A stretch of DNA of 44,275 nt from Candidatus Aphodenecus pullistercoris (lineage in GTDB: Bacteria > Spirochaetota > Spirochaetia > Sphaerochaetales > Sphaerochaetaceae). Each line of letters begins with the position of its first letter. The stretch's first letter is position 1. Under the pieces are notes generated by a model, which saw only the letters and a program-made list of their open reading frames with translations, was not told the DNA's origin and did no database searches. Location: the NCBI GenBank assembly GCA_017694495.1, contig JADIMU010000028.1, positions 1 to 44,275 of the forward strand, read 5' to 3'. Made by a program: the position numbers and the translations under genes. Positions 14,401 to 34,668 of the stretch are shown in pieces.

Positions 14401-15477
14401 ATGGTCTATTTTGTTAGCAACTCACGACAGACGAGGACTCGTTTCGAGACTCTGGCCAAAGACTTCGAATGCGCATTCTTCATGACGTTCACAGGCCTGG
14501 AGAGGGAGCTGAGGTCGCATGATGGCTGCTACTCGGTCGTCATCGACGAGAACCTTGAGATGGCGGCATGCCTGTCCTTCATCAGCAGGCATTACAGCGA
14601 CAGGAATCTGAAGAAGATCCTCATGATCAGCTCTCAGACGGAAGGAGTCCCTTCCCTCCCAGATGACAGGATCTCGATATGCTCATACAGCGACTTCGAG
14701 GACAGGCTCTCGCAGCTCAGGGGAAAGGATGAGGATGATGACGGACTGGCAAGCCTGCTTCTGGGCGACTCCCCTGCCATGGTCCACCTCAGGAGCGAGG
14801 TGAAGAGGATTGGAGCCGCCGGCCACAATGTCCTCGTCTATGGACCCACAGGAAGCGGCAAGGAACTGGTCGCCAAGGCCCTGCACGCCGCCTACAGCAA
14901 GAAGGCGCCGAGCATGCTCAACTGTGCGCTTCTGGACTCGAGCCTGCTCGAATCCCATCTCTTCGGCCATCGCAAGGGCTCCTTCTCCGGAGCAGACAGC
15001 GATTTCAAAGGCATAGCGGAGACGGCCAACGGATCGTCGATCATCCTGGACGAGTTCGAGGCCATGCCCATGCTCACGCAGGCGAAGCTGCTGCGCTTCA
15101 TCGACACGGGAGAGTACTACCGCGTCGGAGAGAATGTGCCCCGCTATTCCAAGTGCCGCATCATAGCGCTGAGCAACGAGCCGATCGGGCAGCTGCTTGA
15201 CGACAAGCGCCTGCGTTTCGACTTCCTGATGCGCATAGCGGTGACACGCATCAACGTCCCTGCGCTGAAGGACCATCTTGAAGACATAGGAACCCTGGTG
15301 CGCAGCCGTGAGGCGAAGTGCGTCTACAAGGACCACATCCGGGACATCGAGGGGCTGAAGCGCTATCCCTGGCCCGGAAACGTCAGGCAGCTGTTCAATG
15401 TCGTCGACTCGATCCATACGGACAACAAGTGCGACAAGAGCATAGATATGGAAGACTTCGCCAGAGGTTTCTACTGA
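14401..15477 (+). CDS. AAA+ sigma54-activator-like protein lacking a DNA-binding domain
   Basis: The 358-residue protein has a degenerate receiver-like N-terminus (residues 1-106) and a bacterial-enhancer-binding AAA+ domain. Asp49 in SVVIDENLE sits where the phospho-acceptor should be, but the acidic pair after strand 1 is missing (VYFVSNS). The AAA+ part has Walker A GPTGSGKELVAKA (148-160), a GSFSGA loop (193-198) in place of the sigma54-contacting GAFTGA, Walker B IILDEF (214-219), sensor-1 ALSNE, and WPGNVRQL. The chain stops right after the AAA+ lid, so there is no Fis-type helix-turn-helix. GAGGGG precedes the ATG. Whether it still activates sigma54 is unknown. Confidence 0.8.
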   Translation: MVYFVSNSRQTRTRFETLAKDFECAFFMTFTGLERELRSHDGCYSVVIDENLEMAACLSFISRHYSDRNLKKILMISSQTEGVPSLPDDRISICSYSDFEDRLSQLRGKDEDDDGLASLLLGDSPAMVHLRSEVKRIGAAGHNVLVYGPTGSGKELVAKALHAAYSKKAPSMLNCALLDSSLLESHLFGHRKGSFSGADSDFKGIAETANGSSIILDEFEAMPMLTQAKLLRFIDTGEYYRVGENVPRYSKCRIIALSNEPIGQLLDDKRLRFDFLMRIAVTRINVPALKDHLEDIGTLVRSREAKCVYKDHIRDIEGLKRYPWPGNVRQLFNVVDSIHTDNKCDKSIDMEDFARGFY

Positions 15478-15581
15478 CCTCAGAACCATGCAGGAGATGA
15501 GTGGATGAGGCGGTCAAGGCTCCCCTGCCCTGGCCGCCGAACTTTGTCCAGACACTAGGACGACAGAATGTTCGAAAAAAG

Positions 15582-15898
15582 TTTTCAACAGGGCTTATCT
15601 CATGTTTGCCAAGATACTTGGAGAGTTATGCACACTTTCAACAAGGCCTGTTGAAAACCTGTTGAAAACTTCTCCTTTGTAAAGCCTTGCGAACATCTTG
15701 AAAGAAGCTGGAAATAGGGCTTTCCTATATAATCTTTGAATTGGAACTTAATTGTACGTTTTCTTACAAATGATTGTGTTGAAACAATTTGACAAAGCGG
15801 TCGATGCTGTATGACTGACAGGGGAAGAGGCAACTTCCACCACAGCTTCCGGACTTCTTACAGACTTTTCCACAGCCCTGTTGAAAACTTGTGGAAAA
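15582..15898. repeat. Cluster of DnaA-box-like 9-mers in a non-coding gap
   Basis: Within the 428-base gap between two convergent genes are TTTTCAACA at 15582, its complement at 15649, 15660 and 15879, and TTTTCCACA at 15866 with its complement at 15890. Near matches lie at 15635 and 15778. These are the same 9-mers that crowd the dnaA-dnaN gap. The middle of the gap is AT-rich (about 15670-15790) and includes TATATAAT. No open reading frame of note or tRNA is seen here. Confidence 0.7.
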
Positions 15899-15905
15899 CC
15901 CACAT

Positions 15906-17192
15906 CTAGTGTTCGTTACGCCGAATGCTTGCGCCTATGGCCACGAGCTTGTCGAGAAGATGGTCATAGCCCCTCTCGATCTGTTCGATGTTGCTTATGA
16001 CGCTCTCCCCTTCGGCCGAAAGCGCTGCGACGACCAGAGCCATTCCGGCCCTGACGTCCGGGCTGATCACATGGCGTCCCTTGAGGATGCTTCTGCCCCT
16101 GACTACGGCACGGTGCGGGTCGCACAGGATGATGTCGGCCCCCATGCGGATCAGATAGTCGATGAAGAACATCCGGCTCTCGAACATCTTCTCGTGGATC
16201 AGGATGCTGCCTTCCATCTGGCTGGCGGTGACGCACATGATCGACAGCAGGTCGGCTGGAAAGCCGGGCCAGGGTCCATCGTCGAGCTTGTCGGTCAGAC
16301 CAGAGTAGGTACGCACTATCCGCCTCTCCTGCTCTCTCGGGACATGGATCGAGTCCTCTCCCTTCTCGAAGCGGATGCCGAGTTTCAGGAAGCCGTTCTC
16401 GATCGGTCTGAGCTGGCTGACGTCGACGTTGGTGAGGGTCAGACTGCTGTGTGTACATGCGGCAAGCCCGATGAAGGATCCGCATTCCATGTAGTCGAAG
16501 CACAGGCTGTGCCGGCAGCCGGAGAGCGAGTCCTGTCCATGGACTGTCAGATGATTGCTTCCTATGCCCTCTATGGGGCAGCCCATGGCGACGAGCATGT
16601 GGCACAGGTTCTGGACATGAGGCTCGCATGCGGCGTTGTATATTGTGCTGACGCCGTCCGCCAGACTTGATGCCATGATGACGTTCTCCGTCGCTGTGAC
16701 GGAGGCCTCGTCGAGGAAGATGTCGGCGGCCTTCAGGCGGCCATGCGGCTTCATCTCGAGGTTTCCATCCGGCCGCACGGTGCACTCCACACCCAGGGCG
16801 GAAAGTCCCGTGAAGTGGCTGTCCAGCCTCCTGAGCCCGATCACATCGCCACCAGGTGGCGGTATGACGAGGGACACGCCCCTTGCAAGGAGGGGGCCGG
16901 CGAACAGGATGGAACCTCGCACGGAATCGACAAGGGAGGGAGTCAGTCCGCTGAAGTGGATGTCGCTGTGGATGTGGCATGAGCCGTCACCCATGGGCAC
17001 GACCTCGCTGCCCAGCTCCTCCAGAAGCCGCATCATGACGCGCACATCCTGAATCATCGGAAGGTTGGAGATTGTGACTGTCCCATCCGTCAGCAGGCTT
17101 GCAGCCAGGCAAGGCAAGGCGGCGTTCTTGTTGCCGCTGATGCGCACGCTTCCGCTGAAGCCTCCCGATCCCTGGATGACGTATTCGCTCAT
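15906..17192 (-). CDS. murA: UDP-N-acetylglucosamine 1-carboxyvinyltransferase, Asp-type
   Basis: First committed step of peptidoglycan synthesis: transfers enolpyruvate from PEP to UDP-GlcNAc in the cytoplasm. The 428-residue protein shows SGNKNAALP with Lys22, the catalytic loop PPPGGDVIG with Asp116, and the GPWPGFPADL motif near residue 300. The loop residue that is Cys in most MurA proteins, the fosfomycin target, is Asp here, as known for chlamydial, mycobacterial and Borrelia enzymes. No Shine-Dalgarno is visible at the ATG. The gene is divergent from the NahK-like gene. Confidence 0.93.
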   Translation of the reverse strand: MSEYVIQGSGGFSGSVRISGNKNAALPCLAASLLTDGTVTISNLPMIQDVRVMMRLLEELGSEVVPMGDGSCHIHSDIHFSGLTPSLVDSVRGSILFAGPLLARGVSLVIPPPGGDVIGLRRLDSHFTGLSALGVECTVRPDGNLEMKPHGRLKAADIFLDEASVTATENVIMASSLADGVSTIYNAACEPHVQNLCHMLVAMGCPIEGIGSNHLTVHGQDSLSGCRHSLCFDYMECGSFIGLAACTHSSLTLTNVDVSQLRPIENGFLKLGIRFEKGEDSIHVPREQERRIVRTYSGLTDKLDDGPWPGFPADLLSIMCVTASQMEGSILIHEKMFESRMFFIDYLIRMGADIILCDPHRAVVRGRSILKGRHVISPDVRAGMALVVAALSAEGESVISNIEQIERGYDHLLDKLVAIGASIRRNEH

Positions 17193-26566: not shown

Positions 26567-26861
26567 TTTTCAACAGCTTCGCGCGTATGAAGACTGCCCT
26601 TCTATGACTGAGACTGAAAATGTATATTCTATGCCGCCGTAATAGTAATAGTGCCCAATCAATTGTTGAAAACCATGTCATGCTGTTTCAATATATAGAT
26701 TTGTTTTGTGGAAAACTTCTGTTGAAAAGATGTTGGGACAAAGGTGGTAGATGTTGAAATGTTGAAAACTCCATGAGGCTTTGGAAAGTTTTCAACAGCA
26801 CATCGGCTTTTCAACAGACTTTTCAACAACTTATGAACGGCTTTTCAACAAGTTTTTAACA
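26567..26861. other. oriC: Probable chromosomal origin (oriC) with DnaA-box array
   Basis: The dnaA-dnaN gap holds exact TTTTCAACA boxes at 26567, 26789, 26808, 26820 and 26842, and the complement TGTTGAAAA at 26664, 26720 and 26760. TTTTCCACA is present as its complement at 26707. Near matches are at 26752 and 26853. All but the first are arranged as a left group on one strand facing a right group on the other. The 9-mer differs from the classical TTATCCACA at two positions. An AT-rich part (about 26680-26706) could be the unwinding element. Gene strand switches around dnaA, consistent with an origin here. Confidence 0.85.
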
Positions 26862-33378: not shown

Positions 33379-33394
33379 TGTTTCACGTGAAACA
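33379..33394. promoter_or_regulatory. parS: parS site 1
   Basis: Perfect 16-base palindrome TGTTTCACGTGAAACA, identical to the well-known ParB-binding consensus. parA and parB are 1.7 kb downstream. Confidence 0.95.
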
Positions 33395-33594
33395 TGGAAT
33401 TGATGCGTGAAAGTGGTTGATAACTCTAGTTATGTAAGATAGAGGAGAGCAAGGAATAATATTAAAATCAAATCGTTTGTAAGAAACAGATGAAAACATA
33501 CTTGTCCTCGCTAGGTCAGGTTGAAATATAGAAAACCAATTGAGTATTCGCGAAAAAGGCCGATTCAGGTTCAAATGAAGATGAATATAGTGAC

Positions 33595-33610
33595 TGTTTC
33601 ACGTGAAACA
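33595..33610. promoter_or_regulatory. parS: parS site 2
   Basis: Perfect TGTTTCACGTGAAACA, 216 bases after site 1. Confidence 0.95.
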
Positions 33611-34001
33611 TGAAAAAAGGAAGGATTAATAATCCCTGTTCAATGCATTAGTTCATATTGAAAGAAGAAATTCATCGATCAAACTGGAGAAATTAATCTG
33701 AATAATCACATTGGATTTCAGTTTATTGTTGAATGGAAGATAGACTTTGTTTTGGTAGCTTTTATACGGAATCGGATTATTGGGAAGCAGAATTTGATTA
33801 AAAGACCGAATTCCATTACTCGAATACATAGCCTATAGGTACAGTAAAGTAGTTGAGCTTTCCTGCTTGGATACAACAACTAAAACGCAAAATATTGATT
33901 GTTTTCAATCGTTCGTTTGAGATGTTTGATGAGACTCTCCAGGAAAGATTGATGTGCTTGGTTTAGCGCAGTGGATTACTTCTTAATTCATTTTCCTAGA
34001 T

Positions 34002-34017
34002 TGTTTCACGTGAAACA
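34002..34017. promoter_or_regulatory. parS: parS site 3
   Basis: Perfect TGTTTCACGTGAAACA, 407 bases after site 2. Confidence 0.95.
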
Positions 34018-34553
34018 ATGATTCTAATTCTCATGAATTGAATTTGGGTTTTAGTTCATATCTACACCGTTTGATAATTCTTATGATTGATTATTACTGT
34101 TGTTTGTTTTGTTTCAATTGTATTGATCTGTCTCGAATCCACTGCTTGCACATAGGCTTTTTGTCCTGCACTTGATGTTTCGTTTTGTTCTCATGTGCAA
34201 ATCTCATTGTTAGCCCAAGTTTGTATTATGGATGAGCTGCTTTGTTTAATTCTGAACTTTCCGTAATGTGTAAAGAGAGTATTCGATTGTTTTGAGTACT
34301 CTATTTTTGATTTAATTTGTGCAATCGGGTTGATTATTTTAAATAATAATGCGTTTGTTTGCTGTTCAATCTGAAATCGTCCTGGTGATCGATCATTCCC
34401 CTGGGACCTTGGTGTTGTATCAAAATCTCTACATAGATCGTTTTTTTTGGTTCAATGTGGGTTGTGAAGGGAAGGGCTATCATTATATTTCGAATGTTTA
34501 GATAATGTTTAGATGATATTGTCTGATGGGGACTGGTTGTATGCGCTTTTTTT

Positions 34554-34569
34554 TGTTTCACGTGAAACC
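34554..34569. promoter_or_regulatory. parS: parS site 4
   Basis: TGTTTCACGTGAAACC: one change at the last base, with the inner 14-base palindrome intact. Confidence 0.9.
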
Positions 34570-34627
34570 ATCCATTCGTCTTTTTTTGTGGTATTTTTTT
34601 TGACGTTGGTCTTGATTTGAGTCTTAT

Positions 34628-34651
34628 AACTAATATATTAGTATATTAGTT
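34628..34651. repeat. AT-rich inverted repeat next to parS 5
   Basis: AACTAATATA and TATATTAGTT form a perfect 10-bp stem around TTAG. The left arm and loop also make a 14-base palindrome, ACTAATATATTAGT. Its role is unknown. Confidence 0.6.
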
Positions 34652-34652
34652 T

Positions 34653-34668
34653 TGTTTCACGTGAAACT
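34653..34668. promoter_or_regulatory. parS: parS site 5
   Basis: TGTTTCACGTGAAACT: one change at the last base. It lies directly after the AT-only inverted repeat at 34628-34651. Confidence 0.9.

Follow-up and report, generated by a model that had tools for sequence, protein, structure and literature searches.

The 44,275-bp stretch of DNA analysed here (hereafter the window) carries DnaA-box-like words both between dnaA and dnaN and in the gap between two convergent genes, which raises the question of what the second group of boxes does. Dedicated chromosomal sites that control DnaA have been dissected mainly in Escherichia coli, and titrating clusters have been described in Bacillus subtilis and Streptomyces. 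By the relatives of its MurA, the genome belongs to the genus of Bullifex porci, in the family Sphaerochaetaceae. The preliminary description of the window had reported six exact 9-mers and near matches in a gap of 428 bp into which both neighbouring genes point. Our counts and positions agree, and the gap is indeed bordered by the stop codons of a sigma-54-activator-like gene on the plus strand and of murA on the minus strand (Table 1).

In the window, the word TTTTCMACA occurs 15 times against an expectation of 0.30, and no shuffled sequence reached 15. Six copies fall at 15582-15898 and nine at 26567-26850, in the dnaA-dnaN gap; the former also has a seventh strong box, the near match TTATGCACA at 15626. 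The whole genome (2.07 Mb in 70 contigs) holds 48 copies, 33 of them scattered, and just two clusters, namely the gap at 15478-15905 and the dnaA-dnaN gap, with no third. When the rate of the scattered sites is taken as background, six copies within 317 bp are expected about 5e-11 times anywhere in the genome. The preliminary description had held that the word crowds elsewhere only between dnaA and dnaN, and had named a high genome-wide frequency as a finding that would speak against it; the two-cluster pattern extends to the whole genome, and the word is not common but strongly enriched in the cluster.

The boxes in the gap do not form a loose cluster. Two tandem double boxes lie on the minus strand exactly 230 bp apart, both facing the same way, at 15649/15660 and 15879/15890, with 2 bp between the boxes of each; extra boxes on the opposite strand are found at 15582, 15626 and 15866. 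With at most one mismatch allowed, the whole genome has only four double boxes: two in the element, one between dnaA and dnaN and one close to guaA. The last is a lone double box with one mismatch, located past the 3' end of a guaA-like gene (L304, ~1442-1461; G000:C21:9941-9960).

Table 1. Components of the element, its flanking genes and the comparator gap, in window coordinates
Feature	Position	Strand	Remarks
Intergenic gap containing the element	15478..15905 (428 bp)		Stop codon to stop codon, convergent genes
DnaA box L0, TTTTCAACA	15582..15590	+	Position kept in congeners, partly as variants
DnaA box L1, TTATGCACA	15626..15634	+	TTATGMACA-like in most congeners
Left tandem double box, TGTTGAAAA-CC-TGTTGAAAA	15649..15668	-	Invariant in an 8-sequence alignment
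Spacer	15669..15865		AT-rich motifs at fixed positions: TATATAAT 15726-15733, TTGACA 15789-15794
DnaA box R1, TTTTCCACA	15866..15874	+	Faces the right double box head-to-head, giving a DARS-core-like triad
Right tandem double box, TGTTGAAAA-CT-TGTGGAAAA	15879..15898	-	230 bp from the left one
Conserved right flank, CACATCTAGTG	15901..15911	+	Overlaps the murA stop
Left neighbour, sigma-54-activator-like AAA+ protein	14401..15477	+	Pfam PF00158
Right neighbour, murA	15906..17192	-	Pfam PF00275
dnaA-dnaN gap with nine exact boxes	26567..26850		Site of the origin according to GC skew; used for comparison with the element

Retention of the cluster in close relatives had likewise been named beforehand as a check. 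Both the element and the dnaA-dnaN cluster were kept in every congener with a detected murA (14/14), at ~9-13 kb from each other compared with ~11 kb here. In Bullifex the distance between the doublets is 230.5 bp (SD 0.5) and the distance to the murA stop has an SD of 32 bp; identity is 96% in the four core boxes versus 48% in the spacer. In one congener (G005; L033, ahead of murA) the two neighbours are the same but the element between them is flipped as a unit, its 230-bp spacing intact. The spacing of the triad formed by box R1 and the right doublet is confined to the main Bullifex subclade, and in divergent Bullifex the plus box lies 24-36 bp away.

A sister genus, g16, has the same doublet pair, there written TGTGGAAAA, beside the same sigma-54-activator-like gene. 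At the g16 loci inspected murA is not the other neighbour; its place is taken by a pfkB-like gene, a transposase or a different gene. All 35 genomes of Bullifex and g16 with both exact doublets place them 229-231 bp apart (230 bp, n=27; 231 bp, n=6; 229 bp, n=2), and the spacer motifs of the TATATAA-like and TAATTnTTTTATATTA-like kinds also stand at fixed positions across the two genera. In the window, the product of this gene contains an AAA+ domain but none recognised as DNA-binding, and in other families a response-regulator gene takes its place, which in Gracilinema is next to pspA.

The Bullifex box word gave no match near murA in other genera, and an earlier impression had been that the feature is genus-specific. 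This was wrong, since a rescan near murA with TTATCCACA-type boxes, of the classical TGTGGATAA kind, showed the element in other genera. At 11 of the 12 loci inspected in other Sphaerochaetaceae, the gap adjoining murA contains two doublets of such boxes in the same layout; the exception is L023 (the same locus as L054), where the element lies ~2.9 kb downstream of murA. MurA itself is 50-80% identical to its homologues across most of the class. A MurA search gave no match in the one representative each of Sphaerochaetaceae genera g7, g8, g9, g11, g12, g13, g16 and g19, several of them with genomes of 1.2-1.5 Mb; peptidoglycan synthesis has possibly been lost.

Across the class, a strict pair (same-facing boxes 218-238 bp apart) was present in 94 of 297 Spirochaetia genomes versus 2 for the reversed control. 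Outside the family, 22 genomes had a strict pair in the same orientation no more than 6 kb downstream of murA, where ~0.2 were expected, after omission of strict pairs that are oriC itself (G053, G286, G311, G381 and G192); many of the genomes are draft MAGs, and the counts ignore phylogenetic kinship. A weight-matrix scan of named loci picked up strong elements in taxa that include Sphaerochaeta, Pleomorphochaeta, Gracilinema caldarium and Treponema lecithinolyticum; a spacing of 216-240 bp was preferred, and fewer pairs stood at other spacings. No element was seen in the 6-8 kb downstream of murA at many Treponema loci or in Brucepastera and the f19 genome, and elsewhere in the phylum, outside the class, the pattern was near background (~8/160 genomes). 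Outside Bullifex and g16 the spacing is 216-237 bp. The spacer varies from genus to genus (mostly 223-233 bp), so helical phasing is not strictly conserved.

The wording of the boxes indicates which protein reads them. In Sphaerochaeta, TTATCCACA is used in both the element and the dnaA-dnaN gap; TTTTCCACA predominates at both places in g16, and TTTTCAACA does so in Bullifex. Two separate loci thus shift their box word together, which argues that one protein, DnaA, reads both, and sequence evidence of this kind strongly supports DnaA as the ligand of the element. E. coli DnaA in vivo mainly binds boxes 2-3 bp apart (PMC11317965). The tandem boxes of the element, 2 bp apart, correspond to this preferred target (PMC11317965), whereas the tying of two such doublets at a fixed distance is a feature of the element. 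Some g16 genomes have a double box within the dnaA-dnaN gap as well (G072:C7:43519, G084:C44:83323, G096:C118:788).

DnaA boxes beside AT-rich DNA could also mean that replication starts here, and a part in a split origin was among the roles first suggested for the gap. The element does have an origin-like look, with DnaA boxes and box arrays on either side of an AT-rich segment, and B. subtilis provides a precedent for bipartite origins (PMC5295017). The skew of the window alone was too noisy, so GC skew was read on long congener contigs. In 10 of these the cumulative minimum falls at dnaN/dnaA. In four complete Sphaerochaetaceae genomes the minimum lies 0-5 kb from dnaA and the element 14.6-29 kb away, and two complete genomes from other families, with the element ~146 and ~113 kb away from dnaA, have a skew curve that continues unbroken across it. 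No inflection at the element was seen in the 10 congener contigs or in these six complete genomes of other genera. With the minimum at or near dnaA-dnaN everywhere examined, we have abandoned the split-origin suggestion and judge it very unlikely that the element is part of such an origin or a second one unwinding at the AT-rich spacer. Since skew reflects use over the long term, rare or auxiliary firing at the element may still occur.

DnaA acts elsewhere as a transcription factor, and the element might accordingly let DnaA switch the transcription of an adjacent gene, with murA, pfkB or the lptF/G-like genes as candidates. In several other families it does lie just upstream of a ~300-aa gene paired with an LptF/G-like gene. 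In the window, however, the genes converge on the gap, and a search of 15478-15905 found no promoter-like and no terminator-like site. Furthermore, the element stays constant while its surroundings change from the murA 3' end to a pfkB-like gene or transposase (g16) or lptF/G-like genes, and in G005 it is turned around as a whole. Because the neighbours vary and the genes converge in Sphaerochaetaceae, transcription control is unlikely as the common function, and we consider such a switch quite improbable, with a regulatory role upstream of the LptF/G-like genes of other families being possible. Regulation of murA in particular was rejected as a candidate, as the g16 genome G030 is without a detected MurA homologue yet has one doublet. 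Convergent genes need termination and the boxes make inverted repeats, so a terminator or a structured RNA also had to be weighed, along with a chance accumulation of AT-rich words. Beyond the missing terminator-like site, an Rfam search with the element returned no match above gathering, and its consensus fold had 9 pairs, 0 of them with a compensatory change, which merely pair a plus box with a minus box. The counts and the conservation rule out a chance pile-up, and boxes conserved as DNA words that track those of the dnaA-dnaN gap contradict all three readings, to which we attach almost no credence.

The element invites comparison with known DnaA sites outside origins. At E. coli datA, bending of the spacer lets boxes of one orientation come together, and DnaA-ATP is hydrolysed (PMC5742627); in MG1655, datA has a tandem pair and a further same-facing box 162 bp apart. 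Both datA and the element are non-coding DnaA-box loci on the origin side of the chromosome, outside oriC, and the element matches the same-facing direction and conserved spacing of the essential datA boxes, a spacing that is functionally relevant in datA. The second site of the element, in contrast, is also a double box, at ~230 bp. In addition, datA needs an IHF site between its boxes, and HU does not substitute for IHF there (PMC5742627), whereas the genome studied here has a single gene of the HU/IHF family (PF00216). An IHF-dependent form of datA is therefore inapplicable, and HU or intrinsic bending would have to serve. B. subtilis and Streptomyces, with genomes unlike that of E. coli, also have box clusters outside oriC, and the cluster found here is above chance; the fixed two-doublet geometry across many families distinguishes the spirochete element. 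This likeness was drawn from published descriptions of those clusters.

The right end of the element resembles a different E. coli system. In DARS cores, box I is opposed to boxes II and III (PMC5742627), and the triad at 15866 (+), 15879 (-) and 15890 (-) has this order, its gaps of 4 and 2 bp each being 1 bp shorter than the 5 and 3 bp in the + - - cores of MG1655 DARS1 and DARS2. On this basis, DnaA-ADP bound to the head-to-head triad could release its ADP and be recharged, promoting the next initiation. However, the triad spacing is absent outside part of Bullifex and most other genera have no strong plus box next to the right doublet, whereas the same-facing doublets are general; nor is an IHF/Fis pair evident or a Fis/IHF module identified, the HU/IHF family being the one searched for in the genome. 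Since the triad is mostly absent in relatives, we rank recharging of DnaA below restraint and think it unlikely.

On balance, and with restrained confidence, we favour a non-origin DnaA control element, with an architecture like that of datA, that would capture or inactivate DnaA once initiation has taken place. The preliminary description had proposed a DnaA control role by analogy with datA or DARS. Clustering, class-level conservation, fixed spacing and the drift of the boxes in step with those of the dnaA-dnaN gap uphold the part of this that concerns a non-origin DnaA-binding element; membership of either class is doubtful, as the IHF heterodimer is missing and the triad belongs to one Bullifex subclade. 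As a statement that the element may work like these sites, the analogy is reasonable.

We propose that DnaA would bind both tandem double boxes in the cell, one dimer per double box, and that the two same-facing complexes ~230 bp apart would meet in one looped complex, permitted by the AT-rich spacer and probably by its bending through an HU-type protein. Being replicated soon after oriC fires, the element would double early in copy number; it would then withdraw DnaA or aid hydrolysis of its ATP, so that the origin is kept from refiring too soon. Across the class the element lies ~7 kb to 146 kb from dnaA, so early doubling would not be equally tight everywhere. Occupancy, looping, the involvement of HU and the negative direction of control are predictions made from sequence. 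For the last, the guide is other bacteria: non-origin box clusters in B. subtilis and Streptomyces restrain initiation, and their loss advances it (PMC5742627, PMC5295017), while in E. coli the accumulation of boxes close to oriC has been proposed to serve titration (PMC12371093). These origin-proximal arrangements lead us to favour restraint by capture or inactivation of DnaA. More tentatively, the element may be an ancient possession of the Spirochaetia, whose two double boxes, at a fixed ~230 bp, make a single DnaA loop that needs only HU; it would then have evolved independently of datA and DARS and would keep its function while neighbours, distance to oriC and box sequence change; we are close to undecided on this, inclining slightly against it.

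In the open-access literature searched we found no earlier report of the element, a provisional statement. If a site of fixed geometry is indeed shared by many spirochete families, control of this kind would be older, or have arisen more often, than thought, and the element might offer a way into spirochete replication control. The drift of its boxes together with the origin boxes in two genera would also amount to a natural experiment on the coevolution of an initiator and its sites. On the opposite side of dnaA from the element, the window contains an AT-rich segment at 33390-34665 (GC ~0.38) in which GTTTCACGTGAAAC occurs about five times, an arrangement that resembles a parS centromere cluster.
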